Source: Litorilinea aerophila (lineage in GTDB: Bacteria; Chloroflexota; Anaerolineae; Caldilineales; Caldilineaceae). From it: a DNA stretch of 47,960 bases. The notes beneath the pieces were generated by a model, which worked only from the letters and a program-made list of their open reading frames with translations, searched no databases and was not told the origin of the DNA. Position numbers and translations under genes: made by a program. Below, piece after piece: positions 30,891 to 47,960 of this stretch; position 1 is the first letter of the stretch; every line of letters begins with the position of its first letter. Location of the stretch: positions 1 to 47,960 of the forward strand of contig CAMDQF010000006.1 of assembly GCA_945905745.1 (NCBI GenBank). The letters run 5' to 3'.

Positions 30891-33800
30891 CTATCGCTCA
30901 ATCTGTGGCAGATAGAGTGGGTTTGTGGATGGCGTTTCTTCTTCCAAGAAGAGAGCGTAGACACCCACGCCCCGGGATGGCGCAATGGCGACACGCGCAT
31001 CCACCAGATCGTCCAGATTGATGCTTTGGATCGGTGTCCACACGCTGCCATCCCAGAAGGCCACCACAACTTTGAGGAAAACTTGCGCGCGGCGGGCGTT
31101 GCCAAAGAACGGTCGCGTACGCAAAGTCACATTCCCTTCCTCGACCAGCGCGCGGGGCAATGCCACCAAACGGTAGGCCTGTCCGACAATCTCACGTCCT
31201 ACGGGGGGGCGCGGTATACCCACCATACTCTGCAAAGCGATAAACTCGCCCTTTTCCAGGTAGATATCGGTGGTGCGGGCAAACTCGGCTTGACCATCCG
31301 AAGAGATCACCGGCGCACCACCATAGAGATGCGCCGGCCCCTCCGCTCCGTGACCGCCCACGCCGTAATCCACCAGCGTCTCTCGGCGGGACGCGCTCGC
31401 TCTAGCCGATTCACTCACAAATATCTGTACATAGGCCGAGGTGGCGTCCACGGGCGAGTGGAAGGTGCCCGTATAAAAGCCGTCACTCCCGGCCAGAACG
31501 ATTTCTGTCGGCGTGTCCGTATCTTCCGGGTAGAGTACGGCCCGCAGGGAAAGCCCGGCGCTGATCTCCTGGGTCACCGAGATTCCGATGGTGCGGCTGG
31601 TGGCGTGGGAGATTTCGATGATTGGCGCCCAGCCATCGTCCTTCTCCATTTGCAGACTGTTATCCCCCAGCGCCAGCACCTCACAGCCGTACTGGTGGCG
31701 CGGCTCCGATGCGTCCTCTGTAAAGTCATTGACATCAAAGACGCAGAAACGGTCATCGGTCTGGCTGCCAACGAGGGTGATTTCGGTTGTCCCCCCGGCT
31801 GGCTTGCCCTGATCGATCACCCGGTTCCCCCGCAAGAGAAAGGCGCGGGCCTCGCCGGAGGCGCTTTCCCCAGCCTGGTAGTTGAGGGTGAAGGTCTGGT
31901 TGGGCAGCACAACCACCGGGTTGGCCGGCGGATGGATGGTCACTTGGGTGAAGGCCGCCGGCAGGGTATGGGGGCCGGGATTCACGGCTGTTGGCGACGA
32001 CAGAGAGCTGTACCAGAGCCGGATCGTATCCCATTCGTTGCGTTTGAGGGTGTGGTTGGCCAGGGTGCTGCCACAGGCACTCTCCCAATGGCCGGGATCG
32101 TAGACAAATTCGGTGTTCGCTTCCTCATAAACCCAGCCCATCGCGCTGCCTGTGCAGCTAGCGGTCTCCACAATTTCGCCCTCCGGGGTCACAGCCAGAT
32201 AGGTGTCGAAGAGATAGAGCAGATAGTGGCCCAGTTCGTGGGCCAGGGCCAGAGGCCAGTCGTTGCTGATGTCCACGCCCAGGTCGTCGGGTTCGCCGGG
32301 CAGGTTGAAGCGATTCCAGGTGCGTCCCATAAAAGTGTAGCCGGGGTAGTAGGAGACCGTCGGAATCAGCGGGTCGGTCACATCGCTGGCGCTCACGCCA
32401 CCGATCTCGGCGTGGGGGCGCAGATTGTTGCTGGCATAGATACGCACATCCGCCTCGTCCCACTTGTCGTAGTTCTGGTAGACCTGGACATCACCCAGGC
32501 TCACCTGGCCATCGGTGAAATCGTAGAGATAGCGGGCGGCCTGCTGGATGTGATTGCGCAGCCGGTTCTGATAGGCCGTATCGCCCAGCAGACTCCACTG
32601 GGTGGAGAGGGTCAGATTGTAGAGCAGCAGGGGATGGGCCGGACCAATCGATAGGGTCATTTCCTGAGTAGGAGAACGATTGAACTCGGCGGCCTGGAGT
32701 TGCCTGGGCGCGCCGCTGGTCTGATAGAGAACTGTCTGGCTGGTGGTAGAGATTGGCAGAAATGCCCACAGAGAGTCGGCAATGCCCACCTGTCTGCGCA
32801 CCAGATAACCCTGGCTGTCGGTTGTGAGAGGTGGCCCGGCAGGGGAACCGTCGCGCAGGAGGGAGACCTGGGCGTTGGCAGCCGGCACACAGGCGGTCTG
32901 CAATTGCTGGCAGACGCGGATATTGTTGGCCGGGAAAAAGGGACCGAAGGTCAGATTGTCAAGCGCTTCGGAATTGGCAGTGCGGCCATAGTCCAGTTTG
33001 ACGTAAGCAATGCGGCCAAAGGCATCGGCCAACCCCAGAAAAGCGGTGTGAGAAACCGGCACAGGGGAGAGCCGTGCACTGCACAACTCTTTTCCCGTCC
33101 GGTCATAGGCAGTGAGGGTGGCAGTCAGATTGGCGGGTTGGCCGTTTCTATCCTCGCCGTTGCCGATCCACATACCCACATAGCTCTGGTCCCGGTCAAA
33201 GGCCATAGGCATAGGCACCCCTTCGCTGGTCCCGGTGATGGCGTCATTGGCGGCCACATTGGGTGCGGAGCGGGGTTGGGAGGGGTCGTTGGTATGGCCG
33301 CCGTAGATGATGGCGTGGTTGGTGTTGTTCTTTTGAAAACGCACCCCATAACTGTTGGCATAGAAGTCTCCGATCTCTGCGTCGTCTTTCATATCGTCGA
33401 AATGGATGTAGGCAAAGCCGGGAATCACAGCCTGGTTGGTCAATTGTCCACAGGGAAGAGTCAGACTGGCGTCGCAGTTGTTGCTCAGGGCAAAGACGAC
33501 CAGATTGATGAAAAATGCCTCTCCCAGGGGTGTCATCGCGCTGCGCGGCGCGTGGAAGCCCCACAGCGTGCGGCAGCCCTGGCCGACAACCAAACCGGCG
33601 TTGATGATTCTGTTTCCATCCAGCAAAGCATGGGGTAGCAGATCAGTTATCTCCGCGGGCACGTCCACCATTACAGTATCGACATCTGTGGTAAAGAGGG
33701 GCATCTCCCGCTGGTTGCGCACCAATGCTGTCAAATCGAAGGGAACACGCAAGGAAGTAAGTTGTGGGTCGCCCGCTCTGATCTTGTGCGCCTGTAGCTG

Positions 33801-34550
33801 GGTTCCGTTGGGCGCGCCGATCATCAGGTCCATTCGCCCAAAGAGGGCGTGGCCGCCTTTGCCAATGCCGACGATGCGGGCGGCTTTACTCAACGCTTCC
33901 ACCTGGCTTGGCGTGCCCCACTCTTGGTCGCTGCCCGTGTCGCTGCCCACAATCACCAGACGGTATCTCCCAAAGTCGGTGCTTTCCACATCGGCCAGGG
34001 GAATCGGGGTGAGGACGATGCCAACCGGTTGCAGCAGGCTGGCAAACTGGGCCGCCTGCTCTTTGTCCGTGTCATAGATATAGGCGACGGAGCCGGAAAA
34101 AATGGGCATAGCCCCTGTCACCTGAAAAGACCTGCCGGTTTTCTTGGTCTGTTCGGCGCGGGCACAGGCATCCCCCGCACAGACATCCAGCCAGTGGGCG
34201 CCGGGGTTGGCGTCGTCGGGCACGGGGAAGGGAATGCTGAAGGCGTCGCCCGTCCCCATCCAGTGGGTGGCAACCTCTTTGCCGTCCCAGGAGAAGGTCA
34301 GCTTCTGCCCACCGGGGCTGAAGCCCTGGCCGTTGACCAGCACAATCGCGCCGGCGGTCGCAGAAGGCGGATCGAGGGTGATTATGGCTTCACCGGTTTG
34401 GGCTTGGACCAGAGCAACCCGGCCCAAACCAGCCAAGAGGAGAAGCGCGATGGCGAAAAGAATGGCCCGGCCCGTCGGTTGCAGGTTACGGGCGGGGCAA
34501 GCCATAGCTGGTTGGTAAAAATAGGGGGAGGTAGAGGTGGATCGGTTCAT
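30891..34550 (-). CDS. giant secreted protein with HELGH metalloprotease motif
   Basis: This 1219-residue protein has a basic start and a hydrophobic segment at about 27-50 (signal peptide). An IPT-like beta domain follows (about 55-145). Next is a region like a glutamine-amidotransferase or ThuA fold (about 150-260) with VAYIYDTDKEQ and LVIVGSDTG. HELGH (771-775) is a zinc metallopeptidase motif, with two His ligands and the catalytic Glu772. A third ligand may be in the downstream acidic segment, but I cannot place it. Beta-rich modules continue to the C-terminus, ending in LYLPQIER. The family was not identified. It reads toward the cyclase, separated by a strong hairpin. Confidence 0.72.
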   Translation of the reverse strand: MNRSTSTSPYFYQPAMACPARNLQPTGRAILFAIALLLLAGLGRVALVQAQTGEAIITLDPPSATAGAIVLVNGQGFSPGGQKLTFSWDGKEVATHWMGTGDAFSIPFPVPDDANPGAHWLDVCAGDACARAEQTKKTGRSFQVTGAMPIFSGSVAYIYDTDKEQAAQFASLLQPVGIVLTPIPLADVESTDFGRYRLVIVGSDTGSDQEWGTPSQVEALSKAARIVGIGKGGHALFGRMDLMIGAPNGTQLQAHKIRAGDPQLTSLRVPFDLTALVRNQREMPLFTTDVDTVMVDVPAEITDLLPHALLDGNRIINAGLVVGQGCRTLWGFHAPRSAMTPLGEAFFINLVVFALSNNCDASLTLPCGQLTNQAVIPGFAYIHFDDMKDDAEIGDFYANSYGVRFQKNNTNHAIIYGGHTNDPSQPRSAPNVAANDAITGTSEGVPMPMAFDRDQSYVGMWIGNGEDRNGQPANLTATLTAYDRTGKELCSARLSPVPVSHTAFLGLADAFGRIAYVKLDYGRTANSEALDNLTFGPFFPANNIRVCQQLQTACVPAANAQVSLLRDGSPAGPPLTTDSQGYLVRRQVGIADSLWAFLPISTTSQTVLYQTSGAPRQLQAAEFNRSPTQEMTLSIGPAHPLLLYNLTLSTQWSLLGDTAYQNRLRNHIQQAARYLYDFTDGQVSLGDVQVYQNYDKWDEADVRIYASNNLRPHAEIGGVSASDVTDPLIPTVSYYPGYTFMGRTWNRFNLPGEPDDLGVDISNDWPLALAHELGHYLLYLFDTYLAVTPEGEIVETASCTGSAMGWVYEEANTEFVYDPGHWESACGSTLANHTLKRNEWDTIRLWYSSLSSPTAVNPGPHTLPAAFTQVTIHPPANPVVVLPNQTFTLNYQAGESASGEARAFLLRGNRVIDQGKPAGGTTEITLVGSQTDDRFCVFDVNDFTEDASEPRHQYGCEVLALGDNSLQMEKDDGWAPIIEISHATSRTIGISVTQEISAGLSLRAVLYPEDTDTPTEIVLAGSDGFYTGTFHSPVDATSAYVQIFVSESARASASRRETLVDYGVGGHGAEGPAHLYGGAPVISSDGQAEFARTTDIYLEKGEFIALQSMVGIPRPPVGREIVGQAYRLVALPRALVEEGNVTLRTRPFFGNARRAQVFLKVVVAFWDGSVWTPIQSINLDDLVDARVAIAPSRGVGVYALFLEEETPSTNPLYLPQIER

Positions 34551-34607: not shown

Positions 34608-35348
34608 CTACCAGTCGCTCTCGTTGCCGAAAAGCTCAATGCGGCTGTCGCGTTCCGCCACCACTCGTTCCATATCCAAAATCGTGATCACGCCCTGGTC
34701 ATACTCCAGCAGACCCCGCTTGCGCCAGTCACTGAGCAGCCGGTTCACCCACTCCCGGCGTGCGCCCACCATAGAGGCCAGGTCGGTCTGGTTGAGGGCG
34801 AGGTCCACAGTGTACTGTCTGCCTGCTTCCACTTCTTTGCCATAGCGCTCCACATAGTAGAGCAGAATATGGAGCAGGCGGCCGGCAGCGTCGAACTGGG
34901 CCACGGACTCGGCGAAAGAGGCTGTCCAACGCAGCTTTTGGGCCAGCAGGCGGGCCAGTCCCAGTGCCAGCCCCGGCGCGTTTTCCAGATGATAAAGAAA
35001 ACGCTCGTGGGACATTGTGAGCAATGAAACTTTGCCAATGGCCTTGCCTGTGGCCGAGCGGGGGCTGCTGTCGATGGCGGCCAGTTCCCCAATCACATCG
35101 TTGACGGAAAAGATGTCTATGGATGTCTCGTTGCCCGATGGACTGATTTTGAAGATACGCACTTTGCCTTTGAGCAAAATGTAGACTTCCCGGCTCTCGT
35201 CGCCCTGACGGAAGATGATATCGTCTTTGTCGAACTCGCGCAGGCGGAAATCGTTGACCAGCCGTTCCAACTGGGTGGTGGCCAGGGATGAAAAAAGCGG
35301 GACTTCTTTGAGCAGCGCAACCCGACGGGCCAATTCGGTCTCTTGCAT
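34608..35348 (-). CDS. Crp/Fnr-family transcription regulator
   Basis: This 246-residue regulator has an N-terminal cyclic-nucleotide-binding domain (about 15-135) and a C-terminal winged helix with recognition region [18 protein letters not shown] (188-205). The phosphate-binding cassette [15 protein letters not shown] (86-100) keeps Gly87-Glu88-Leu89 and Arg97-Ser98, the residues CRP uses for cAMP, so cAMP binding is plausible. FNR-type Cys residues are absent. It sits two genes from the adenylyl cyclase, which fits a cAMP circuit. An inverted repeat at 35389-35403 in its own upstream region may be an operator. Confidence 0.9.
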
Positions 35349-35904: not shown

Positions 35905-35944
35905 TGGGGAGTAGGGACTGGAGATTGGGGATTAGGGATTGGGC
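35905..35944. repeat. GGGGATT heptamer repeat at convergent gene ends
   Basis: About five GGGGATT/GGGACTG/GGGATTA units lie between the DUF3307 stop and the phosphopantetheinyl transferase stop, overlapping the latter's last codons (LPNP). Confidence 0.8.
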
Positions 35945-36762
35945 AGTGTCGCGAAAAGGAAGGATTGTTCTCTAATCGTTGTAATCGGTCGGGTGGTAGT
36001 GAGGGCGGCGCTGTAGTTAGCAGGTGGATTGAGCAGATGGACCGACCATTCAGTGGCAGCGGCGGCGGGCCAGAGGAGGCGGGGGGGGCTCTGCCAGTGG
36101 GCTACGGTGAATTCCTGCAGGGGGGCCATCAGCCCATCGCCCAGGGCTTTGACCACTGCCTCTTTGCAGGCCCAACAGCGCAGAAAGGCGAGGGAGGTCT
36201 GTGGTTCTGGCTGCGCATAGAGCCATTCCGCTTCTACTGGGCTGAAAAAGCGTTGGGCCAGTTGGCGGGCGTCGGGATAGTCCCGGTGTTCTTCGATGTC
36301 TACGCCGATCGCCTGCCCCGCAGCAAAGGCGTAGACCGCCATTTCGCCGGAATCGGAAAGATTGAAATGGAGACCGGTCTCGGCCAAGGGTGCAGCCAGG
36401 GCCGGTTTTTGCTGTGGGCCGTAGACAAAGGCCACTTCGGCGGGTGGAATGGCGAGATAGTCGCCGAGCAGGTGGCGCAATACTCCCCGGCGCACGGCAT
36501 AGCGCCGGGCATCCCGGGCGAAGTGGAAGCGCCGCAGCCGCGCCCACTCATCGGCAGAGAGGGTCTGCTCACACTGCGCGACGGCGGAATCGGGCGGGTC
36601 CAGGCGGGCGTACCAGATGTGGACAGCGCCGGGCGGGGGAGGGGAAGAAGGGAAGAAGGGAGGAAGGGAGGAAGGGAGGAGAGCGTACCGCTCATCTTCC
36701 CTTCCTCTTGTCCTCTTGTCCTCTTGTCTTCCCTTCCTCCTGTCCTCCTGTCCTCCTGTCAT
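35932..36762 (-). CDS. Sfp-type 4'-phosphopantetheinyl transferase
   Basis: This 276-residue enzyme moves the phosphopantetheine arm from CoA to carrier proteins. The conserved blocks are GVDIEEH with Asp155 and Glu157 (Mg2+), and FLRCWACKEAVVKALGDGL with Trp197, Lys200, Glu201 and Lys205. It is last in the NRPS operon and overlaps the exporter gene by ATGA, so the likely clients are the three NRPS carrier domains (Ser569, Ser1050 and Ser1083). The first ~45 residues are not homologous-looking. They are encoded by octamer repeats (36645-36775) that also provide the AGGAGG ribosome binding site. The conserved part starts near VHIWYARLDPP. Confidence 0.88.
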   Translation of the reverse strand: MTGGQEDRRKGRQEDKRTRGREDERYALLPSSLPPFFPSSPPPPGAVHIWYARLDPPDSAVAQCEQTLSADEWARLRRFHFARDARRYAVRRGVLRHLLGDYLAIPPAEVAFVYGPQQKPALAAPLAETGLHFNLSDSGEMAVYAFAAGQAIGVDIEEHRDYPDARQLAQRFFSPVEAEWLYAQPEPQTSLAFLRCWACKEAVVKALGDGLMAPLQEFTVAHWQSPPRLLWPAAAATEWSVHLLNPPANYSAALTTTRPITTIREQSFLFATLPNP

Positions 36763-36775
36763 CCCTTCCTCCTGT
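36645..36775. repeat. octamer repeat tract at the phosphopantetheinyl transferase start
   Basis: On the top strand, GGAAGGGA-like units run from about 36645 to 36690, then TCCTCTTG units (about 36705-36730) and TCCTCCTG units (about 36735-36775). The left and right parts are roughly complementary, so they can form a large stem. The tract covers the exporter's last codons, the ATGA junction and the first 30-40 codons of the transferase. Confidence 0.8.
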
Positions 36776-38378
36776 CATACTCAATCTGCCCAGAATCCAG
36801 CTTCACAATTCGGTCTGCCGTGTCGTAGTAGTGATCGTCGTGGCTGATGACGATGACCAGCTTGCCCCGGTTGCGCAGTTCGGGCAGGAGTTGACGGTAG
36901 AAGAGTTCCTTGAATTCGGGGTCCTGGCCCGCAGCCCATTCGTCGAAGAGATAGACCGGGCGGTCTTCCAGATAGGCGGTGAGCAGGGCCAGCCGCTGGC
37001 GTTGACCAGTGGAGAGTTCCAGGGTGGAAAGGGCGCCGTTGCTCATTTGCACTTTATGGGAGAGTTGAAGTTTTTTTAGATAGGCCTGGGCTTCTTCATC
37101 GCCAGCCATTTTTTCCAGCCCCAGCAATTGATCGAAGAGAAAAAAGTCGGCAAAGACGACGGAGAAAAGTTGGCGGTAGTCGTCAATCGTCTCGTCGATT
37201 ACACCTTTGCCGTTCCATTCGATCTGCCCGCTCTCAGGTGTGTACAGCCCCAGCAGCAGTTTGGCCAGGGTTGTCTTGCCGCTGCCATTGCCGCCGATCA
37301 GGAAGATCAGTTCCCCGCTCGCCATCTCCAGGCTGATGGGGCCGAGATGAAACAGATTCTCATCATTTTCTACCCTATAGGTATGCTGGAGTTGGCAGAG
37401 GCGCAGATGAACAGGCAGCACAGGCGCAATCGTAATTCGTTCTGTGGGTACGGAGTCTTGGGTCAGGCGCATTCCCATCTGCTCCAACCGCTGGGCAGCC
37501 ACACTGGCGTCGCTGAGAAAGGGCAGCGCGCTAAAGAGGCCATTAAGTGACGTGCGAGCGTAGAGCGCCACTAGAACAAAGGTCGTCAACACATCTCCGC
37601 TGAGTTGCCAGGAAGCGGCTAACCCGAAGAGTGCCAGTACAAAAATGAAATAGATGGCCTGGGTCCAAGTTGCCGCCAGATGATGCAGTGTATGGGCCTG
37701 CACGGAGAGAGTTTCGTGCTGAAGGGCAGTGGGCAGCAACAATTTTTCCAGGAAAGCGAAACGCCGACCGCGGTGCATCTTGAGTTCCTTCGACCCTTCC
37801 GTTAACATTCGGTATTGGCGATAGAGTTCGTCGCGGGCGATGAGGGTCGCTGCCCACTTTTGCCGGGCTTTGCCGCGCAGCCAAATCTGCCCGGCCAAAG
37901 CAGGCAGGGTCAACAGCGCAGCCAAAAGCAGGGTCGGAGGCGAAAGCCAGGTCAGATAACCGAAGCAGGCGATCAGAATAGCCGCGCCCATGGCCACATT
38001 CGGCGTCTGATTGAGGGCATGGACAAGGGTTTTCACATCGTCCGTAAGCGCAGCCAGCAGTCGGGGCGCACCAATTGTCTCTAGTTGGGCGAGGGGTGTC
38101 TGCAAAATGCGTCGGGAGAGGTCGGTGCGTAACTGATAGCCCGTGCCTGCGGTCAAGCGTAGGAGCAGCCATTTGCCGCTGAAATCCAGGGTTACAACAA
38201 CCAGGACAGCCAAACCAAACTGGACGACGAAGAGCAATGACAGTCCATCGCCAGCGGTAAGCCGACGGCTGATCATGGCAACAACCACAATATTGGCGGC
38301 CCCCGCCAGTAAGCTGACTACGATGGTGGTCCAGAGGGTGGATGTCGGGATGTAGCGGAGGAGACCCAGAAGATTCAC
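36759..38378 (-). CDS. cyclic-peptide-type ABC exporter
   Basis: This 539-residue half-transporter starts at a GTG overlapping the NRPS stop (GTGA). It has about six membrane helices (about 1-300) and a nucleotide-binding domain: Walker A GGNGSGKTT, signature LSTGQRQRL, and Walker B VYLFDEWAAGQDP. The Walker B region WAAGQDP in place of TSAVD is typical of the SyrD/PvdE group that exports nonribosomal peptides and siderophore precursors. It follows directly after the thioesterase-containing NRPS and precedes the phosphopantetheinyl transferase, so it probably exports the peptide product. It should act as a homodimer. Confidence 0.9.
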   Translation of the reverse strand: MNLLGLLRYIPTSTLWTTIVVSLLAGAANIVVVAMISRRLTAGDGLSLLFVVQFGLAVLVVVTLDFSGKWLLLRLTAGTGYQLRTDLSRRILQTPLAQLETIGAPRLLAALTDDVKTLVHALNQTPNVAMGAAILIACFGYLTWLSPPTLLLAALLTLPALAGQIWLRGKARQKWAATLIARDELYRQYRMLTEGSKELKMHRGRRFAFLEKLLLPTALQHETLSVQAHTLHHLAATWTQAIYFIFVLALFGLAASWQLSGDVLTTFVLVALYARTSLNGLFSALPFLSDASVAAQRLEQMGMRLTQDSVPTERITIAPVLPVHLRLCQLQHTYRVENDENLFHLGPISLEMASGELIFLIGGNGSGKTTLAKLLLGLYTPESGQIEWNGKGVIDETIDDYRQLFSVVFADFFLFDQLLGLEKMAGDEEAQAYLKKLQLSHKVQMSNGALSTLELSTGQRQRLALLTAYLEDRPVYLFDEWAAGQDPEFKELFYRQLLPELRNRGKLVIVISHDDHYYDTADRIVKLDSGQIEYDRRKG

Positions 38379-41300
38379 TGGCTGCGGTCCTGCCAGTGTT
38401 CCGTCGTCCAGCGGTCAATGACCTGGCGCAGCTTCTCGGCGATGCGTTCCACATTTTCATCTTCGAGGAGAAGGGAGCGGTGGGTGGTGTTGGGAAAGTG
38501 GATGATTTCAAGTCCATGCAGGGCCAACTCGGGCCAATGTATCTGGGCATGATTTTTGAAATACTGGTCGCTCTGAAAGAGGACCACCTGACCAGCCAAG
38601 GGTTTCGCCTGATACCTCCATTGAGCGCGTAGGTGAGAATCCCACACCTTGTCCTTTGCATTTCCGTGGGGTAGAAATCGATGAACCAAACGAATGCGCA
38701 AGGTTCTATAATGGAATTTTAGATAATTGGCAACGCGTTGGAATAGCTCACCATTCTTTAGATGAGCAACGAATCGACGGGCATAGAACAACAAGGAACG
38801 TTTGGGTCGTTTCCAGGTTGGACCATTGGTTGGGTGGCTTGCATCGAAGGTGAGAACGATCGGCACATGCTTGCCATCGATCTGCAATTGCTGGGCCATT
38901 TCAAACGCAACGTGGGCACCAAAGCACATACCCCCAATGAGATAAGGGCCGTCTGGTTGGAGAATTCGCAGTTCATCCACATACTGTGCAGCGATTGCTT
39001 CTACACTGTCAAGAGGTTCAGATCTGCCATCAAAGCCAATCGGATCGAAACTATAGATAGGTTGATCCGGGCCGAGAACGCGTGCCAGGTAGGCAAAACG
39101 CAGACCAGTGCTGGCGGCGGGTGGAACCAAAAAGAGGGGTGGGCGCGTGCCGCTAGGCTGCACAGACACCAGCGAAGTCCACGGCGAAGTCCAGCCACCC
39201 TCTGCCAGCAACACTGCCTGCTGGCGAATCGTCGGCCCATAAAAGAGCGAAGCCACCGGCAATTCTCGCCCGGTCGCTTTGGCTACTTTTGCCAGCAGAC
39301 GCACGGCCAGCAGGGAATGGCCGCCCACGTCAAAGAAGTTGTCATCTACGCCCAGGTTTTTCGTTCCCAGCACCTGCTGCCAGACAGCCAGAAGTTGTCG
39401 TTCCAGGGGTGTCTGGGGGGATGCAGATGGTGCAGAGGCGTCCTCTCGCCCCGGTTCGGGGAGCAGGCGCAGATCGATCTTGCCGTTGGGGTTCAGGGGG
39501 AACTCCTCCACCCGGACAAATGAGGCGGGAATCATATAGTCGGGCAGCCGCTGGCGCAAAAAGGAGCGCAGATCGTCGCCGCTGGCTTCTGCCTCCGGTT
39601 TCCCAATCCACCAAGCGATCAGCCGCTTCCCCAGCGTTTCATCATCCAACACCCCCACTATTCCATCCCGCACCGCCGGGTGTTCCCGCAGCACAGATTC
39701 AATCTCGCCCGGCTCCACCCGGAAACCCCGAATTTTGACCTGGCGATCCACCCGGCCCAGAAATTCGATGACCCCATCCTCCCGGTAGCGGGCCAGATCA
39801 CCCGTGCGATAGAGCCGCGCGCCGGGTTCGTCGCTGAAGGGATGGGGGAGGAAACGTTCGGCGGTCAGGTCTGGCCGGTTGAGATAGCCCAGGGCCAACC
39901 CCGCGCCGCCCACGTAAAGCTCGCCGGGGACGCCGATGGGGACGGGCTGGAGGTGGTTGTCAAGCAGAAAAATTTGGGTGTTTGAGATTGGTTTGCCAAT
40001 GGGAGCGTCGGACGGCCATTCCGCTATCGGTCCGTCCAGTGTTTCGGCAGTGATCACATGACTTTCTGTTGGTCCATAATGATTATGCAACCGGCAGTGG
40101 GGAAGGCGCTGCATCATGGCACGGATCGATGGGGTCAGATGCAGAGTCTCACCCGCGGATATAATATCTCGCAGGGAATCGGGAAGTGCGGCCTGTGTGT
40201 TCGCGCAATCGGCTATTGTCTGCAAGAGGATGTAAGGGAGAAACAGACGTTCAATCTGCTGATCTCTGATGAAGCGCAATAGACGCGGTGGCTCTTGCCT
40301 TAAGTCCGAAGATGGCACGACAAGTGTCCCCCCATCTGTCCATGTGCTGAGAATCTCCTGTAACGAAACGTCAAAACTCAGAGACGATAATTGCAGTGTG
40401 CGCGCAAACTGGCCCAATCGCTGATTTCTGCGTTGCCATATGACAAGATTTGTGAGCGTTCTGTGGGGTAACAGGACAGCCTTTGGACTTCCTGTGGAGC
40501 CTGAAGTGAAAAATGCATAGGCAGGGTCATTGGATGCTACATAGTGGGTTAAGTTGGTGTCAGGCTGAGCAACTATATTCATTTGTTCGATATTGAGATA
40601 GGCAGTCGCCTCTCTCTTGGGAAAGGTCAAAAGGGGCGTTCTATTTGTACTGAGAAGCAATTTAGGCTGCGTGTCTGAGATCATCCCGGAGAGTCGCTCA
40701 AAAGGCAGATTGAGATCGAAGGGAAGATAAACACCACCCGCCTTTAAGATTGCCAATAGAGCCACCAGAGTTGAAACACTTTGTTCAACCCAAACCCCAA
40801 CCAAATCGTTTGGTCGAATTCCCTGTTTTTGCAAGAGGTGGGCCAGTTGATTGGAGCGCCGATTCAATTCTGCATAGGTGATGGAAGCAATCTTTGACTC
40901 AATCGCAATGGCATCAGGTGTACGCGAGACCTGTTCTTCGAACAATTGGTGGACGCACCGATCCGCCGGGTAGTCGGCGTCCGTCTGATTCCAGGCGACG
41001 AGAAGCTGCTGGCGTTCGGTGGTAGTGAGGAGGGACAATTCGCCGATGGGACAGTCGGGGTCGGCGACGATCCCCGCCAGAAGCGTTTGGAAGTGGCCGA
41101 TCATCCGGCGGATGGTGGGGGCGTCAAAAAGATCGGTGGCGTAGTTAAGATGTCCATTGATCGCGCCGCCTTCTTCGCTAAAGAACAGGCTGAGATCGAA
41201 CTTAGCTGTTTCCGAAGTGGATGGAATGCGTGTGACCGTCAAACCGTCCAATACCTGTTCCAACTCTCTTTCCTGGTTGAGTACGAACATCGTTTGAAAA

Positions 41301-42562
41301 AGGGGCTGTCGATTGGTCAAACGTGGCGGATGCAGTTCCTCCACCAGTTTTTCAAAAGGTATCTCCTGGTGCTGGTAGGCATCCAATGTCAAGGAGCGCA
41401 CATGGCGCACGAGTTGGCGAAAGCTCATCGTTCCCGATGGACGGGCGCGCAGAACAAGAGTATTGAGGAAAAGACCCATGACCCCTTCCAGCTCGCTGCG
41501 GTTGCGATTGGCTATGGGCGTGCCAATCGAGATGTCTTCCTGGCCCGTGGAACGAAAGAGCAGAATATAGAAAACAGAAAGGAGAGTGATAAAAAGGGTA
41601 GCGGATTCGGAGACGCCCAGATTGCGCAAACGGGCTACCAGTTCAGGGTCAAGGGTGAATCGCTTGCCTGCGCCCCGATAGCTTGACACAAGCGGATAGG
41701 ATCGATCCGTGGGTAATTCTAGTGGTTGGCTATTCTGAAGCTGGACGCGCCAATAGGTTAGCTCCCGTTCCAGAATTTCACCCTGCAAACGTTCCCGCTG
41801 CCAGACGGCAAAATCGGCGTATTGGAGGGGGACGGGTGGCAGGCGGTGAGGACGCCCGGCGACGCGGGCATTGTAGAGGGCGGTCAACTCCTGCCAGAAA
41901 ATCTGGCTAGACCAGGCATCGGTGATGATGTGATGGCGCACAATTTGGAGGATGTGTTCCTGTGGCCCGATACCTATGAGTGTGACGCGCAGCAGTGGCC
42001 CTGTCTGCATGTCAAAGGTCCGATCCCCCTCTGCGCGTAGAAGCTCAATAGTTTTTTGTGTCCGCTGCTCTTCTGGCAATTCTGCCCAATCGGTCCGCTG
42101 GTGAAAGCTGATCGCTGCCCACTCTGGTCCTGGTGGAGAGACGATCTGCACTGGCTCATCACCGCGCAGAGCAAAGGTTGTGCGCAGAATTTCGTGGCGA
42201 TTCACCATTTCGTTCAGGCTATATTGAAGTGCGGAGACGTTCAATGCACCCAGGATATTGAGCCAGATAGAAGTATGATAAACTGAACTGTTTGGTTCAT
42301 ATTGGTGCAGAAACCATAGCCGCTCTTCTGCAAACGAAAGTGGCAAGCTGCCCTCTCGCCTAACAGACTTGATGGGTTCCCCCTCATTACGCTTTGCAGT
42401 CTGTTGCAGAAAGCGCACAATCTCGGCTCGCCGCTCCGAAACCCTAACGCGCAAGTCGGCGGGAAAGTGGCCTGCAGACATTCTGTATCGAAGAGTATCT
42501 CCTTCAAGCCAGATTTTTATATTCTCTGTGCGCAGTTCAAGCAAAAGATCGAGGACACTCAT
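38375..42562 (-). CDS. NRPS: docking-C-A-PCP-TE, terminal module
   Basis: This 1395-residue synthetase has an N-terminal TubC-type docking domain (1-55), a condensation domain (about 70-500) with HHIITDAW, and an adenylation domain (about 520-1030) with A3 FFTSGSTGSPK, A5 NHYGPTESHV and A8 KIRGFRVEPGE. A carrier domain has Ser1083 (VGGHSLLA). A thioesterase (about 1130-1390) has GGMCFG with Cys1213 instead of Ser. The A-domain selectivity residues read as DVQFIAHVIK by manual alignment to GrsA, close to the proline code DVQLIAHVVK. It probably adds a Pro-like residue and releases the chain. The start is two bases after the previous stop. Confidence 0.93.
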   Translation of the reverse strand: MSVLDLLLELRTENIKIWLEGDTLRYRMSAGHFPADLRVRVSERRAEIVRFLQQTAKRNEGEPIKSVRREGSLPLSFAEERLWFLHQYEPNSSVYHTSIWLNILGALNVSALQYSLNEMVNRHEILRTTFALRGDEPVQIVSPPGPEWAAISFHQRTDWAELPEEQRTQKTIELLRAEGDRTFDMQTGPLLRVTLIGIGPQEHILQIVRHHIITDAWSSQIFWQELTALYNARVAGRPHRLPPVPLQYADFAVWQRERLQGEILERELTYWRVQLQNSQPLELPTDRSYPLVSSYRGAGKRFTLDPELVARLRNLGVSESATLFITLLSVFYILLFRSTGQEDISIGTPIANRNRSELEGVMGLFLNTLVLRARPSGTMSFRQLVRHVRSLTLDAYQHQEIPFEKLVEELHPPRLTNRQPLFQTMFVLNQERELEQVLDGLTVTRIPSTSETAKFDLSLFFSEEGGAINGHLNYATDLFDAPTIRRMIGHFQTLLAGIVADPDCPIGELSLLTTTERQQLLVAWNQTDADYPADRCVHQLFEEQVSRTPDAIAIESKIASITYAELNRRSNQLAHLLQKQGIRPNDLVGVWVEQSVSTLVALLAILKAGGVYLPFDLNLPFERLSGMISDTQPKLLLSTNRTPLLTFPKREATAYLNIEQMNIVAQPDTNLTHYVASNDPAYAFFTSGSTGSPKAVLLPHRTLTNLVIWQRRNQRLGQFARTLQLSSLSFDVSLQEILSTWTDGGTLVVPSSDLRQEPPRLLRFIRDQQIERLFLPYILLQTIADCANTQAALPDSLRDIISAGETLHLTPSIRAMMQRLPHCRLHNHYGPTESHVITAETLDGPIAEWPSDAPIGKPISNTQIFLLDNHLQPVPIGVPGELYVGGAGLALGYLNRPDLTAERFLPHPFSDEPGARLYRTGDLARYREDGVIEFLGRVDRQVKIRGFRVEPGEIESVLREHPAVRDGIVGVLDDETLGKRLIAWWIGKPEAEASGDDLRSFLRQRLPDYMIPASFVRVEEFPLNPNGKIDLRLLPEPGREDASAPSASPQTPLERQLLAVWQQVLGTKNLGVDDNFFDVGGHSLLAVRLLAKVAKATGRELPVASLFYGPTIRQQAVLLAEGGWTSPWTSLVSVQPSGTRPPLFLVPPAASTGLRFAYLARVLGPDQPIYSFDPIGFDGRSEPLDSVEAIAAQYVDELRILQPDGPYLIGGMCFGAHVAFEMAQQLQIDGKHVPIVLTFDASHPTNGPTWKRPKRSLLFYARRFVAHLKNGELFQRVANYLKFHYRTLRIRLVHRFLPHGNAKDKVWDSHLRAQWRYQAKPLAGQVVLFQSDQYFKNHAQIHWPELALHGLEIIHFPNTTHRSLLLEDENVERIAEKLRQVIDRWTTEHWQDRSQ

Positions 42563-42564
42563 AA

Positions 42565-45500
42565 CTATAACTCTCCCTCCTCTACTTCACTTACAGTTTC
42601 CTCGGATTCTGGCTGTATATGCCAAAGGATAGCCTCGATTCTTTGGCATATCCCGGTTATGGTTGGCTCTTCAAAGAAGCTACGTAGGGGCAATTCGATC
42701 TGAAACGTGTCTCGGACACGAGAAATCACTTGAACTGCCAGAAGCGAATGTCCCCCCACTTCAAAGAAATTATCATAAATACCGACATGACTCACCATAA
42801 GAGATTCAGCCCAAATCGCGGCCACTTTCTCTTGAATCAATGTGTGGGGGGCAACAAAGTCGTTTTCCAACACGGGTCTCTCCGTCATATCTGGGACAGA
42901 CAGCGCACGGTAGTCGATCTTACCGTGCGGGGTTACAGGCATGGCTGTTAATTGTACAAAATGCGAAGGAATCATAACCTGCGGTAATTTCTGGCCGAGG
43001 AAAGTGCGCAATTCGTGTTCAACAATGGGCTGCTTCCCAACAAAAAAGGCCACCAATTGCTTACCAGCTTGAGTCTCATGTGTCGTGACTATTGCTTCCT
43101 GGACTCTGGGATGGTTGACAAGTACAGATTCAATTTCCTGTAGCTCTATACGAAATCCGCGTATCTTTACCTGCTTGTCTTCCCGACCGAGAAACTCGAT
43201 GTTGCCATCGAGCAGATATCGGACTAAATCCCCCGTTTTGTACAGGTGTCCCGATCCAAATGGATTGGAAATAAAAGATGCTTTAGTCAATTCTGGATTA
43301 TTTAGGTAGCCACGAGCCACCAAGGATCCACCAATATATAGTTCTCCTATACACCCCACAGGAAGTAGTTGAAGATGACGATCAAGAATATATACTTGCG
43401 TGTTAGGGAGTGGCCGTCCAATGGGAGTTGTTAGGTGTTGATTTGTTGTTTGGTGTACACGATAGGTTAGAACGCCGACTGTCGTTTCGGTTGGCCCATA
43501 GTGATTGTAAATGACGGCCTCCGTACTCTGACAAAGCTCCTGCATCCATTTCCAACGTGATGATTCACCCCCAATAATCAAGCGTTGTTTGGGTAAAACC
43601 GGTGCAGGTAAAAGCGCGGCCAGGTGAGAGGGCGCGATCTTGAGACAGTCTATCGAGTGCTGCTGGAAGTAGTCGGCTAGACCACCTGGGCTCAACGCTG
43701 TTTCACGCGAGATGATGTGCAAAAGTCCACCTGTCCAAAGCGGAGGAAAAAGCATCGTAATACAAGAATCGACCGTCAATGGTTGCACCATTGCGAAACT
43801 CATTCCCTCTTGAAACTGACAGCGTTCACAAATACCTAATACGTACTGCACAACCTGGCGATGTTCAACTGCAACACCTTTTGGCTTGCCCGTTGAACCT
43901 GATGTGTAGAGTATATAGGCCAAATTGGTCGAAAGTGTGGAAGGAGCCGATGGCGTAATTCTATGTTTTGAACTGAGATCAAGTGTCTCAAAGTTAGAAT
44001 CCAAATAAACAAGCTCACACTTGTGATGTGGCAATTTCGTTTCTATATCCCCTTGTATCACTAGCACGCTAAGATTTGTATCCTGCATCATTAACAGCAG
44101 GCGATCACTTGGCATGTCTGGCGACAATGGAACATAAGCCCCACCCGCCTTCAGAATTCCCAATATACCGACAACCATCTCCATAGACTGCCCCACTAGC
44201 AGGCCGACGGCCACATCTGGCCCGACTCCCAGGTCTATCAAGTGGTAAGCCAATTGATTGGCACGGGTGTTGAGATCTTGATAATTCACTTGCTCGCCTT
44301 CGAAAACAACCGCCACCGCATCGGGAGTCCGTTCGACTTGGGCTTCAAACAACTGGTGGATACAAAGGTCTTCCGGGTAATCGATTGCGGTGTCGTTCCA
44401 CTCAATAAGAAGCTGGTGTCGTTCCACCTTAGTGAGTAAGGGCAGTTCTCCAATAGGGCAATCTGGATCAGCAACGATACCTTCCAGAAAAACTTGGAAG
44501 TGGTCAATCATGCGGTGGATAAAGGGCTCGTCATAAAGGTCGATGGCATATTCCAGATGGCCGTTCAAGTCTGCGCCTGAATCATAAAGGTGCAGACTTA
44601 GATCGAATTTGTTCGATGTATCAATACGATTCAGTCTTTGGCACACAAGCCCAGGTAGATACAGGTCGCTTCTCGGCATATTCTGAAGGGCAAACATCAC
44701 ATCATACAAAGGATTTCGGCGCATATCCCGGATTGGATGCAACTCTTCCACCAGCTTCTCGAAGGGAAGTTCCTGATGCGCATAGGCAGCCAGCGCATTC
44801 TGGCGCACCTGGGCCAGCAGTGAGCGAAAGGTCGGGTTGCCGCCGCAATCGGCGCGCATGACGAGGGTATTGACAAAAAATCCGTATATCCCCTCAATCT
44901 CTGCTCGGCCGCGGTTGGCAATGGGCGAACCGACTGCGATATCTGTCTGCCCACTGTAGCGATGGAGCAGAACTTGAAAAGCCGCCAGCAAAAGCATATA
45001 AAGACTGGACTCGGAAGCGCGGGCCAAGCTGGCCAACGAATCGCTCAGTGGCTGGCTCAACTGGAAATGAACCATTGCCCCCCGGTGGCTGGGCTGGGCT
45101 GGACGTGGGTGATCGGTCGGCAAATGGAGAGGCTCCATCCCGGCGAGACGGCTGCGCCAGTAGTCCACAAGTTCGGCCAGCCGTTCGCCCTGCAACCGTT
45201 CCCGCTGCCAGATCGAATAGTCGGCATAAGAGACGGGGAGATCGGGCAGGGGGGACGCTTCGTTGCCCATTGACAAGGCGGCGTAGAAATGGCGCAGCTC
45301 GCGCCAGAAGATGCTGCCGGACCAGCCGTCACTGATGATGTGATGGGCAATGCGCACAAAAATGTGGTCGTTGTCCGCCAGACGGATCAGGAAGACGCGC
45401 CAGAGCGGGGGGCTGGTCAAGTCGAAGATGACCGCCCGTGCCGCGTCGATCTGCTGCCAGGCCGCGTCCATCTGTGTGTCGGCGGGCATTGCAGTTAAAT

Positions 45501-45894
45501 CGATAACTTTTATGTGCGTGGGCGGCAGTGGCTGCGCTACTTGCATAAGGGTGCCGTCGATCTCCCGGAAGCAGACGCGCAGAGAATCGTGACGAGCGGC
45601 CAGGGCGTCCAGGCTGCGTTGCAGGGCCGGGATATGGAGGGGACCGGTGAGGCGCAGCACCTGCGTTTCGTTGTAGGCCGCTGAATCCGGCTCCAACTGG
45701 GCCAGAAACCAGAGCCGCTCCTGCGTGAAGGAGAGGGGCGCGGGGCCACTTTCAGAGCGGCGGGGGATGCGCTGGCTTACTTGTACTGAGCCTGTCGAAC
45801 GTATCCCGTTCTTGCGCGCAGCCAGCAAGCGCTCTTCCAGGCGGATACGTTCTTCTGTAGAAAGCTGCGCGATGCGTTGGGTGAGATCAGACAT
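42565..45894 (-). CDS. NRPS: C-A-PCP, middle module
   Basis: This protein has 1109 residues from the ATG at 45894 (GAGG upstream, 8-base overlap with the previous gene). A short linker (LSTEERIRLEERLLAA) leads into a condensation domain (about 30-450) with HHIISDGW. The adenylation domain (about 480-990) has A3 LYTSGSTGKPK, A5 NHYGPTETTV, A7 YKTGDLVRY and A10 TPHGKIDYR. The carrier domain has Ser1050. The hand-read selectivity code is DSTKIGHVGK, near the Asp-type code DLTKVGHIGK. The C-terminus (PESEETVSEVEEGEL) is strongly acidic, as expected for a short motif that binds the TubC-type docking domain of the next protein. Confidence 0.93.
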   Translation of the reverse strand: MSDLTQRIAQLSTEERIRLEERLLAARKNGIRSTGSVQVSQRIPRRSESGPAPLSFTQERLWFLAQLEPDSAAYNETQVLRLTGPLHIPALQRSLDALAARHDSLRVCFREIDGTLMQVAQPLPPTHIKVIDLTAMPADTQMDAAWQQIDAARAVIFDLTSPPLWRVFLIRLADNDHIFVRIAHHIISDGWSGSIFWRELRHFYAALSMGNEASPLPDLPVSYADYSIWQRERLQGERLAELVDYWRSRLAGMEPLHLPTDHPRPAQPSHRGAMVHFQLSQPLSDSLASLARASESSLYMLLLAAFQVLLHRYSGQTDIAVGSPIANRGRAEIEGIYGFFVNTLVMRADCGGNPTFRSLLAQVRQNALAAYAHQELPFEKLVEELHPIRDMRRNPLYDVMFALQNMPRSDLYLPGLVCQRLNRIDTSNKFDLSLHLYDSGADLNGHLEYAIDLYDEPFIHRMIDHFQVFLEGIVADPDCPIGELPLLTKVERHQLLIEWNDTAIDYPEDLCIHQLFEAQVERTPDAVAVVFEGEQVNYQDLNTRANQLAYHLIDLGVGPDVAVGLLVGQSMEMVVGILGILKAGGAYVPLSPDMPSDRLLLMMQDTNLSVLVIQGDIETKLPHHKCELVYLDSNFETLDLSSKHRITPSAPSTLSTNLAYILYTSGSTGKPKGVAVEHRQVVQYVLGICERCQFQEGMSFAMVQPLTVDSCITMLFPPLWTGGLLHIISRETALSPGGLADYFQQHSIDCLKIAPSHLAALLPAPVLPKQRLIIGGESSRWKWMQELCQSTEAVIYNHYGPTETTVGVLTYRVHQTTNQHLTTPIGRPLPNTQVYILDRHLQLLPVGCIGELYIGGSLVARGYLNNPELTKASFISNPFGSGHLYKTGDLVRYLLDGNIEFLGREDKQVKIRGFRIELQEIESVLVNHPRVQEAIVTTHETQAGKQLVAFFVGKQPIVEHELRTFLGQKLPQVMIPSHFVQLTAMPVTPHGKIDYRALSVPDMTERPVLENDFVAPHTLIQEKVAAIWAESLMVSHVGIYDNFFEVGGHSLLAVQVISRVRDTFQIELPLRSFFEEPTITGICQRIEAILWHIQPESEETVSEVEEGEL

Positions 45895-47761
45895 TAAAAA
45901 GTACCTCGAATTGATTGGAAGCTGAATCCGCGAGCAGCGCAACTGTTACCAGCAGGGCCATATCAGCCACAGTGGGTGCGCCAAAGAGTGTAGCCAGGGG
46001 CAGGTCGACGCGCAGAGTGTGGATCACCCGCGTCACCACCTGGCTGGCCAGCAGGGAATCACCGCCCAAATCCAGAAAATTGTCATGGATGCCCACCTCT
46101 TCCAGACCTAATACGTCAGCCCAAATTTGGGCCAGTTCGGCTTCCACCGGCGTGCGCGGCGCAATGTAGTCCACGGCCAGGGGCGGCCGTTGGCGACCTG
46201 GATCGGGCAATGCCCGCCGATCGACCTTCTGGGATGTGGTCAGTGGCAGTTGTTCGAGGAAGACGAAGGCAGCGGGCAGCATCGCCAGGGGTAGGCGCTG
46301 GCCCAACGCCTGACGCATCGCACCGACGACAAGCCCTTCTCTGGCTGGAACGACATAGGCTACCAGACGCAGATCACCGTTGGGACCGGGACGGGCGTCC
46401 ACGGCTGCCATTTTCACACCGTCCAGGGCCAGCAATTCTGCTTCCACTTCGGAGATTTCGATGCGGTGGCCGCGAATCTTCACCTGCTGGTCTTTGCGCC
46501 CCAGGTAATAGAGACAGCCGTCGTGGTCGCGGCGGCCCAGATCACCAGTGAAGTAGATACGGCGGTCACTCCCCTCCGGGTCGGGTCGGAATCGTTCGCG
46601 TGTCAGTGCGGGCCGATTCCAATAGCCTTGGCTCAAATAGGGGCTGCGCACGACGATCTCGCCGATTTCGCCATCTGCCACCGGCTTCCCCTTCTCATCC
46701 CAGAGCAAAATTTCTTTGTTCTCAACTGGGTAGCCAGCGGGAAGGTTCTCAAGCCCGACTGCCGTTTCCTGAGATGCACAGTAGGTCGTTGCTGTTCCGG
46801 ATTCGGTGGCACCAAACAGATTGACGAATACGCACTTGGAGGAAAATAGGCCGCGGGTCGCGACGATATCAGATCCCATCGAAGGTTCGCCGATAAGCTG
46901 AATCACACGCAAATCCGGGTAGGTGAAACGTCCAAATGCACTGCGCACCAGTTGTCGAAAGGCTGTGACAGTAGCACTTATGACGGTAATCGATTGTCGT
47001 GCAATCCCTTCTGTCAAAGCTGCCAATCCGGAGTGACGGAAATCGAATTCAAAAAAAGTCGCGCCAGCCTGGATTGTTGCAACTGCGGCAGAACTGTTGT
47101 TGTCAAAACCTGTGCGCCGATCCTGCGCACAGAATTGAATCGCCCATATGTTGTTGCGAATGTATACAAGGTAATCCCGGTGGGTGCTGAGTATGCCTTT
47201 GGGGCGACCAGTTGACCCGGAGGTATAGCGAATAAAATAACGGGTATCGGGGTCTATGGCGATCTGGATCGGATCGGCAGAGGCGTTTTGCAGCGCTTCC
47301 TCCGCAAATAGGAGGTCAACCCCACGGGAAACCAATGAGCTTGCCATCTCTCGGTTGCTGCTATCGGTCAAGAGTAGGGGATACTCCATATCCTGTAGCA
47401 TAAAGGACAACCGCTCTTCGGGGGTCTCTGGTGGCAGTACGGCGTAACACATCCCGGCTTTGGTCGCGCCGTAGATGGCTGCCAGCTTCTCAATCCCATC
47501 TTCCATCAGGATGGCTACCGGTTCGTCAATTTGACCGCCACGCTGCTGAATCGTGCGGGCGATGCGGTTGGATGCCTGATCCAGTTCGGCATAGGTCAAT
47601 GTCTTTGTCGGATCGACAATGGCCGGTTTGTCGGGATAGGCCGCTACCATACGCGCAAAGCGCGCAATGACGGACTGTTCTGTCTCAGCATGGGCGATTT
47701 CGGCGACTTCGCCGCTGGGGTGTCTGCACTGCTGACGCAGGGCCGTCTGTTGAGCATTCAT
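45887..47761 (-). CDS. NRPS loading protein: A-PCP
   Basis: This 624-residue protein has an adenylation domain (about 25-510) and a carrier domain (about 530-605, Ser569 in LGGDSLLA), with no condensation domain, so it is a loading module. A3 is YTSGSTGRPKG, A7 is YFTGDLGRRDHDG, and A8 is GRKDQQVKIRGHRIE. Lys is kept in A10 (TTSQKVDRRALP). The A4 region (TGFDNNSSAAVATIQAGATFF) is about four residues shorter than in typical alpha-amino-acid A domains, and A5 is NLFGATESG. No known code fits. The substrate may be a carboxylic, hydroxy or unusual amino acid, which is inference. It is the first gene of the operon in this window. Confidence 0.9.
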   Translation of the reverse strand: MNAQQTALRQQCRHPSGEVAEIAHAETEQSVIARFARMVAAYPDKPAIVDPTKTLTYAELDQASNRIARTIQQRGGQIDEPVAILMEDGIEKLAAIYGATKAGMCYAVLPPETPEERLSFMLQDMEYPLLLTDSSNREMASSLVSRGVDLLFAEEALQNASADPIQIAIDPDTRYFIRYTSGSTGRPKGILSTHRDYLVYIRNNIWAIQFCAQDRRTGFDNNSSAAVATIQAGATFFEFDFRHSGLAALTEGIARQSITVISATVTAFRQLVRSAFGRFTYPDLRVIQLIGEPSMGSDIVATRGLFSSKCVFVNLFGATESGTATTYCASQETAVGLENLPAGYPVENKEILLWDEKGKPVADGEIGEIVVRSPYLSQGYWNRPALTRERFRPDPEGSDRRIYFTGDLGRRDHDGCLYYLGRKDQQVKIRGHRIEISEVEAELLALDGVKMAAVDARPGPNGDLRLVAYVVPAREGLVVGAMRQALGQRLPLAMLPAAFVFLEQLPLTTSQKVDRRALPDPGRQRPPLAVDYIAPRTPVEAELAQIWADVLGLEEVGIHDNFLDLGGDSLLASQVVTRVIHTLRVDLPLATLFGAPTVADMALLVTVALLADSASNQFEVLFNV

Positions 47762-47851
47762 CGATTTATCTTGCTGTGTGTGACATCAAACTATCGGTGG
47801 CAAAAGATTGTAGGCCTTGGTCATCGTTTCGGCCAACCTGTGCTGATTGGG
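47762..47851 (-). promoter_or_regulatory. candidate NRPS operon promoter
   Basis: On the minus strand TTGGCC (47836-47831), an 18-base spacer and TACAAT (47812-47807) lie about 45 bases before the loader start. Only a weak ribosome binding site is visible. Confidence 0.35.
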
Positions 47852-47863
47852 CTAAATCAGCAC
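47840..47863. terminator. hairpin near the right edge
   Basis: GTGCTGATT (47840-47848) and AATCAGCAC (47855-47863) form a 9-base stem with a 6-base loop. It overlaps the stop of a leftward open frame at the window edge, so it may be that gene's terminator. Confidence 0.4.
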
Positions 47864-47960
47864 GGGTTGGGGTGGCGACGGTGGTCGCTTCTTGGCAGGT
47901 CTGCCGGGCAAATCGATATGGGCCAGCAGATAGTCAAACAGGTTGAGCGGCTCTGCATTG
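47852..47960 (-). CDS. partial C-terminal coding region, function unknown
   Basis: A leftward frame is open from the window edge to a TAG at 47852-47854 and would encode the last ~35 residues of a protein (AEPLNLFDYLLAHIDLPGRP, then a Pro/Lys-rich tail). I do not recognise it. The hairpin at its stop and a promoter-like gap after it suggest a real gene end. Confidence 0.4.
   Translation of the reverse strand, partial: NAEPLNLFDYLLAHIDLPGRPAKKRPPSPPQPVLI

Follow-up and report, generated by a model that had tools for sequence, protein, structure and literature searches.

Linear type I nonribosomal peptide synthetases (NRPS) such as LgrA and SrfA-C are built from adenylation (A), condensation (C), peptidyl carrier protein (PCP) and thioesterase (TE) domains, and recombination among NRPS mainly swaps Acore, with Asub, the Asub-T interface and the T domain being kept (PMC8097286). 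Here we describe an NRPS operon at one end of contig CAMDQF010000006.1 (C6) of Litorilinea aerophila, which was analysed over its whole length of 47,960 nucleotides (the window). In domains, order and fold it is like LgrA and SrfA-C, and it differs from them in that the A-PCP loading protein is separate and occurs in many paralogues, followed in the clusters seen here by one or two C modules only. As in the recombinational exchange of A domains, the substrate-choosing A sequence diverges and the rest of the machine is kept; unlike the cases in PMC8097286, the conserved block begins past Asub, in the PCP, Asub varies with Acore, and the candidate exchange partners are separate genes in tandem. 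The reading that we favour, at about an even chance, is that the window encodes a common NRPS back end, one X-Asp-Pro line fed by a recombining array of alternative loading modules.

The operon consists of the following five genes.

45887..47761, minus strand: P0001, free-standing A-PCP, loading module 1 of the window, with the LGGDS carrier serine present
42565..45894, minus strand: P0002, C-A-PCP with an acidic C-terminal tail
38375..42562, minus strand: P0003, TubC_N docking domain followed by C-A-PCP-TE
36759..38378, minus strand: P0004, ATP-binding cassette (ABC) exporter of the TIGR01194 cyclic-peptide type
35932..36762, minus strand: P0005, Sfp-type 4'-phosphopantetheinyl transferase (PPTase)

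All of these domains scored above the Pfam cut-offs, and the C, A and PCP domains with their catalytic motifs, together with the terminal TE, identify the system as a type I NRPS. P0004 is a predicted cyclic peptide export ABC transporter (412.6 bits against TIGR01194, cut-off 286.2). P0005 carries the ACPS and AASDHPPT_N domains of an Sfp-type PPTase; its top NCBIfam model was HetI, with a score under the cut-off of that model. P0001 and P0002 overlap by 8 nt, given that P0002 starts at the ATG at 45894, most likely its true start, and not at the listed TTG at 45942; a gap of 2 nt separates P0002 from P0003, and the P0003/P0004 and P0004/P0005 junctions are overlaps of 4 nt each. The TubC_N domain occupies residues 5-54 of P0003, and P0002 ends in the acidic tail SEETVSEVEEGEL. 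A TubC_N acceptor pairs with an acidic C-terminal tail on its donor, a partner rule that P0002 and P0003 would fit. The first-pass annotation, made from the letters of this DNA, had proposed the same gene order with overlapping or near-touching junctions, and the presence of dedicated activation and export genes; the Pfam and NCBIfam matches bear it out on each of these points. Its two hand-read codes, DSTKIGHVGK (Asp-like) and DVQFIAHVIK (Pro-like), were also reproduced when the A-domain codes were extracted by alignment to GrsA numbering.

The first of these, from the second A domain (A2, in P0002), is Asp/Asn-like; position 299 was a gap in a second alignment, and the local sequence gives I. 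It agrees at 8 of 10 positions with DLTKVGHVGK, and the substrate of A2 is given here as Asp or Asn because this reference code is reported for both kinds of domain (PMC12283262). The A3 code, from P0003, is Pro-like, and A3 carries Val236 and Gln239, which are frequent among Pro domains (59 of 71; PMC12283262). For A1, in P0001, the code was DNSSQILTAK. Asp220 of P0001 aligns to position 235 and the Lys (517) is present, but about five residues are deleted immediately before Asp220. In a structure model of P0001 (mean pLDDT, the predicted local distance difference test, 86), Asp220 is placed between a strand (215-218) and a helix (223-231), as is Asp235 of GrsA; the best structural matches of the model were solved NRPS modules. 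To our knowledge, and with no code database checked, the A1 code is unlike any known code. The 'X' of X-Asp-Pro is not readable from the A1 code, and several further A-PCPs in the genome could load position 1.

The window is an entire contig, one of 436 in a metagenome-assembled genome (MAG) of 98.84% completeness, and it ends just ahead of P0001 in the following features.

47813..47960, minus strand: one end of a multicopy insertion element, bearing its 24-bp terminal inverted repeat; the contig breaks inside the element
47805..47812, minus strand: 8-bp target duplication TACAATCT, whose other copy stands at the low end of contig C205

These 148 bases, the last of the window, begin 51 bp upstream of P0001, and an open reading frame tail within them ends at 47855; in the longer copy in genome G002 the frame matches DUF6399 in full. 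The element protein gave 13 matches in its own genome, that of the window included, every one at a contig end, and one match (G002) among 45 other genomes searched. When 10 copies of the element were aligned, the shared sequence ended at the equivalent of 47813 and the flanks then became copy-specific. The inverted repeat is identical at the element ends, and the genome has 29 occurrences of it, of which 15 are left and 14 are right ends. By matching the outer 8 bases, 10 one-to-one left/right pairs were obtained, nine perfect and one with one mismatch; the number of perfect pairs expected by chance is about 0.003 by our own arithmetic. The end of C205 and that of the window form one perfect 8/8 pair, which is unique. 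Because the target duplication TACAATCT pairs the two ends, C205 is placed directly upstream of the window, with one insertion element between them. With the element taken out, the last A-PCP on C205 would have its stop codon 4 bp before the ATG of P0001 in the resulting empty site. Pairing by target duplication was used in place of direct overlap, since no overlap of contig ends of at least 12 bases was found among the six contigs compared. As for the element itself, its 29 ends in one MAG (G000 contig ends L070-L108), with their 24-bp inverted repeats and 8-bp target duplications, suggest that DUF6399, a family of unknown function, is linked to transposition and that the element accounts for many contig breaks.

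In operon direction, C205 opens with the 3' part of an A-PCP and three complete A-PCP genes; there follow genes for an ABC ATPase, a permease and an NMT1-type binding protein that looks by eye like a lipoprotein, and then one more complete A-PCP. The window cluster continues into C205 on the same strand. The far end of C205 is a repeat common to seven other contigs and reads as the end of an IS3-like element; contig C148 terminates in the opposite end of such an element, inside an A-PCP gene. In a genome search the two A-PCP pieces matched P0001 residues 4-205 and 224-619; both contigs cut an A domain at the same place, and their open frames approach each other within a codon or two by eye. 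The ends of C205 and C148 have identical three flanking bases (CTC), found by comparing eight left and eight right ends by eye, of which four right ends have a three-base partner. As judged from these ends, C148 very likely precedes C205, and the two pieces are likely halves of one gene. C148 also has an aminotransferase, two BPD_transp_2 permeases and two complete A-PCPs. Where A-PCP genes adjoin (e-d-c-b on C205, a-b-c on C148), they either overlap or are separated by no more than 5 bases, and the seven complete A-PCPs on C148, C205 and C6 are all open frames. Altogether, eight C-less A-PCPs (one of them split) stand ahead of two C modules in an apparent single cluster, C148-C205-C6. In the whole genome there were 2 C-domain matches against 14 carrier matches (five on C205, two on C148, three on C6 and one each on C138, C187, C339 and C31), one carrier being in a 160-aa frame. 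Parts of ABC importers and NMT1/THI5-like binding proteins were observed within A-PCP operons at L016:2076-5154, L021:14753-17489, L022:2-535 and L026:6760-10614, with the binding-protein gene sometimes lying between two A-PCP genes.

To characterize the C-less A-PCPs as a family, 44 A domains were compared, three partial genes having been dropped beforehand. All 14 A domains from C modules have Asp235 (one, g4c511CA, is cut ahead of its C domain). Of the 30 C-less A domains, P0001 alone has Asp at this position; 26 have a different residue and three are gapped. Two of the 30 start at a contig edge and five have extra sequence after the PCP or ahead of the A domain, and 'free-standing' is strict for the remainder. 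Among A domains that activate alpha-hydroxy, alpha-keto and aryl acids, loss of Asp235 is an established feature, and the missing residue is only a hint of non-amino acids here because the Phe-activating McyG also is without this Asp (PMC11253843). In a tree of 42 rows (two partial rows omitted; quick search, with support from the Shimodaira-Hasegawa-like approximate likelihood ratio test only), 29 of the 30 C-less domains and one C-module domain of G273 were split from the other 11 C-module domains with support of 96 and 97; g20_2 was a long-branch outlier. Reading substrates from the codes of the C-less domains was rejected, as the codes fit none known to us.

The A domains and carriers of the array differ sharply in conservation. 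For the six complete array members in the genome of the window (15 pairs), the A core was 31% identical in amino acids and 27% at four-fold sites (264 of 966); for the PCP the two values were 82% and 71% (315 of 443), the change in identity falling at about residue 551. Third-position GC was 0.50-0.58 in the A part and 0.73-0.82 in the PCP. Six orthologous genes of the window and its relative G005 gave four-fold identities of 0.45-0.71 for comparison.

Two relatives, contig C10 of G005 (CAMDEX010000010.1, Litorilinea aerophila) and contig C19 of G006 (JAHBVF010000026.1, Caldilineaceae bacterium), are MAGs of the same genus, named by identity of the fetched DNA, and both names belong to Caldilineaceae, Chloroflexota, at NCBI. 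Like the window, both keep the C-A-PCP-TE, exporter and PPTase genes as well as two neighbours.

34608..35348, minus strand: CRP-family regulator, at an equivalent position in G005 and G006 (85 and 91% identity)
30891..34550, minus strand: 1219-aa protein without Pfam match, at an equivalent position in G005 and G006 (72 and 69% identity)

The order in G005 is a major facilitator superfamily gene, aminotransferase, A-PCP, A-PCP, C-A-PCP, docked C-A-PCP-TE, exporter, PPTase and CRP regulator, with identities to the window of 72% for C-A-PCP, 81% for C-A-PCP-TE, 83% for the exporter, 68% for the PPTase and 85% for the CRP regulator. The A-PCP in front is a different paralogue, 38% identical in amino acids to P0001. 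At the DNA level the two loci match over 11.4 kb at 77%, as far as 45895, which is one base short of the P0002 ATG; past this point only a 77-bp match remains. Between the window and G005 the A-PCP slot is thus seen to differ while the back end is kept, as judged from the alignments. G006 has two A-PCPs and one C-A-PCP-TE, the C module of which has no docking domain and is 49% identical to P0003.

In another genus, G020 has four C-less A-PCPs (one divergent) and two C modules, and G025 one of each. One unbroken contig of G020 carries an A-PCP, the divergent A-PCP, C-A-PCP, ABC ATPase, permease, binding protein, A-PCP, a second binding-protein-like gene (Pfam match under cut-off), A-PCP, C-A-PCP-TE, exporter and PPTase. 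Array-type A-PCPs were found in 9 of 46 genomes of the family with E values up to 1e-175, many of these having built the profile. In a profile search of 301 genomes of the phylum, scores above 640 bits outside the family were obtained for G273, G219, G322 and G140, the next best being 582; this search cannot count arrays because at most four candidates were scored per genome. G273, of another family, carries A-PCP, C-A-PCP, C-A-PCP-TE and PPTase, and no exporter was seen on its 10-kb contig. C-domain matches were present in 21 of 61 genomes (17 above cut-off), and each of the seven genomes of this genus had between 0 and 2. The first-pass annotation knew of no cluster with this layout; G005, with the same back end behind two other A-PCPs, and G273 show that it is not unique. 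It had also judged the operon complete apart from possible upstream genes: such genes do exist, and the compact three-module unit proves to be the 3' end of a larger cluster on C205, by the 8/8 duplication, and very likely C148.

The nucleophile of the TE domain was located as follows.

38924..38926, minus strand: TE nucleophile codon, Cys1213 in GGMCFG

Serine is the usual TE nucleophile. Cys occupies this position in 8 of 10 aligned TEs, namely those of all six clusters of this type in the family (window, G004, G005, G006, G020 and G025) and those of G273 and G219, and Ser in G140 and in a different cluster of the family member G016. By alignment, the window TE has an Asp 27 residues after the Cys, the placement of EntF-like TEs. 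A catalytic Cys is less common in TEs; ObiF, which uses one for a beta-lactone, is alike in its Cys nucleophile and has its catalytic Asp on strand 6 (PMC6668435). No beta-lactone is claimed for the window domain, because in the alignment its triad Asp appears at the usual place and not on strand 6.

Under the favoured reading, several C-less A-PCPs, about eight including P0001, would each activate one carboxylic acid, mostly one without an alpha-amino group, on their own carrier. All or most of the loaded carriers would donate the acyl group in trans to the first C domain, that of P0002, which would join it to Asp (or Asn). The chain would then move via the acidic tail of P0002 and TubC_N of P0003 to the Pro module, and would be released as an X-Asp-Pro product by the Cys-type TE and exported by P0004. 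P0005 would prime all carriers, and the embedded importers would bring in precursors. A cassettes may have been exchanged on a common PCP. What can be read directly from the DNA, and what this reading builds on, are the domains with their order and coupling, the contiguity with C205, the excess of A-PCPs over C domains, the separate tree place of the C-less domains, the divergent A beside the near-uniform PCP and the differing A-PCPs of G005. We rate as rather doubtful, and offer tentatively, the fuller proposal of a plug-in line: a tandem operon of up to about eight loaders, mostly with a near-same carrier and each with its own acid pocket, which would compete for one C domain and so give a peptide library, with A exchange upstream of the conserved PCP and importers supplying scavenged acids.

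Several observations weigh against the favoured reading. P0001 departs from the C-less pattern by having Asp235, and its PCP falls outside the uniform type of the array, with 53% amino acid identity to the array PCPs and a four-fold-site identity of 0.53 (71 of 134). The two 'C-less' domains that start at a contig edge (the G273 first module and G016:C309) may have a C domain ahead of them. Three of the six complete array members have an altered core motif (TSD for TGD, TSSSTG, TSGSTD), and some of them may be weak or dead. The C148-C205 link rests on a 3-bp duplication, for which about one chance match is expected in 64 combinations, and on the shared place of the A-domain cut. Contamination of the MAG is 6.98%. 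The P0004 family is named for cyclic peptides, and a tripeptide is not obviously cyclic. As for the carriers, four-fold identity of the array PCPs with those of G005 and G006 is 0.69, against 0.71 within the genome, and with those of G020 and G025 in another genus it falls to 0.32 (52% amino acid identity). Carrier uniformity, as estimated from these identities, ends at the genus level, and within the genus the PCP block appears to have a history younger or more exchanged than that of the A domains ahead of it. Recent gene conversion in this genome was considered as sole cause of the PCP uniformity and found unsupported, because the PCPs of same-genus species are equally alike at silent sites.

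Of the other explanations, a plain linear three-module NRPS making one X-Asp-Pro peptide, with P0001 as sole loader and the upstream A-PCPs serving other chemistry such as carrier-bound tailoring or an importer-tied pathway, is unlikely. In its favour, P0001 stands directly ahead of P0002 with Asp235 and a PCP of its own type, and similar C-less A-PCPs adjoin other enzymes, for example acyl-CoA dehydrogenase with electron transfer flavoprotein (ETF) in G004:C818 and a methyltransferase in G000:C339. The cluster, however, runs on into C205 on the same strand, and in G005 and G006 no loading modules other than array-type A-PCPs were seen ahead of the C modules (the G006 contig stops a short way upstream). 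We consider it improbable that the C-less A-PCPs are in-trans extension units, with the few C domains acting iteratively to build a longer chain from several carriers. Carriers do outnumber C domains, and the cyclic-peptide family to which the exporter belongs hints at a larger product, but the non-Asp residues at position 235 in 26 of the 30 C-less A domains, with three gapped, fit acids without an alpha-amino group, which could not be amine acceptors; this argument is not decisive because McyG, for Phe, also is without Asp (PMC11253843). It is very improbable that the array is mostly decaying or selfish duplication split up by insertion elements, with function left in the window part only. 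The array does have two insertion elements within it or at its edge, and core motifs are altered in three members, but the seven complete A-PCPs remain open frames, and two orthologue-like pairs with G005 keep 59% amino acid identity in the A core where four-fold sites have fallen to 45%, which suggests purifying selection.

Each part of the system is already known. For C-less loading modules arrayed in tandem as overlapping genes ahead of one or two C modules, we found no counterpart in the titles and abstract openings covered by literature searches, nor in PMC11253843, PMC6668435, PMC10681181, PMC12283262 and PMC8097286, which does not prove the array unpublished. Engineering of NRPS seeks loading modules that can be swapped while the line keeps working. 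If the favoured reading holds, the array would be a naturally evolved collection of interchangeable starters that share a conserved carrier, the boundary used by evolution lying after Asub and not inside Acore. With such a layout a single small machine could yield a family of related peptides, varied cheaply in little-studied bacteria. As a resource, it provides more than two dozen A domains without Asp235 that can be assayed individually for substrate.

A-PCPs were also observed beside other enzymes. At L033:2-4325, G004 has an incomplete A-PCP with 59% identity to P0001 across 262 residues; the genes after it encode acyl-CoA dehydrogenase and both subunits of ETF, which together could oxidise an acyl group bound to a carrier. 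In the same genome, a 449-aa PCP and sulfotransferase protein adjoins an array-type A-PCP (L006:1-1350). An A-PCP pair, 56% identical between G000 and G004, was found at L019:1-4290 and L030:626-5866, in both cases flanked by methyltransferase and DHODB_Fe-S_bind proteins, which suggests a second, separate conserved A-PCP pathway.

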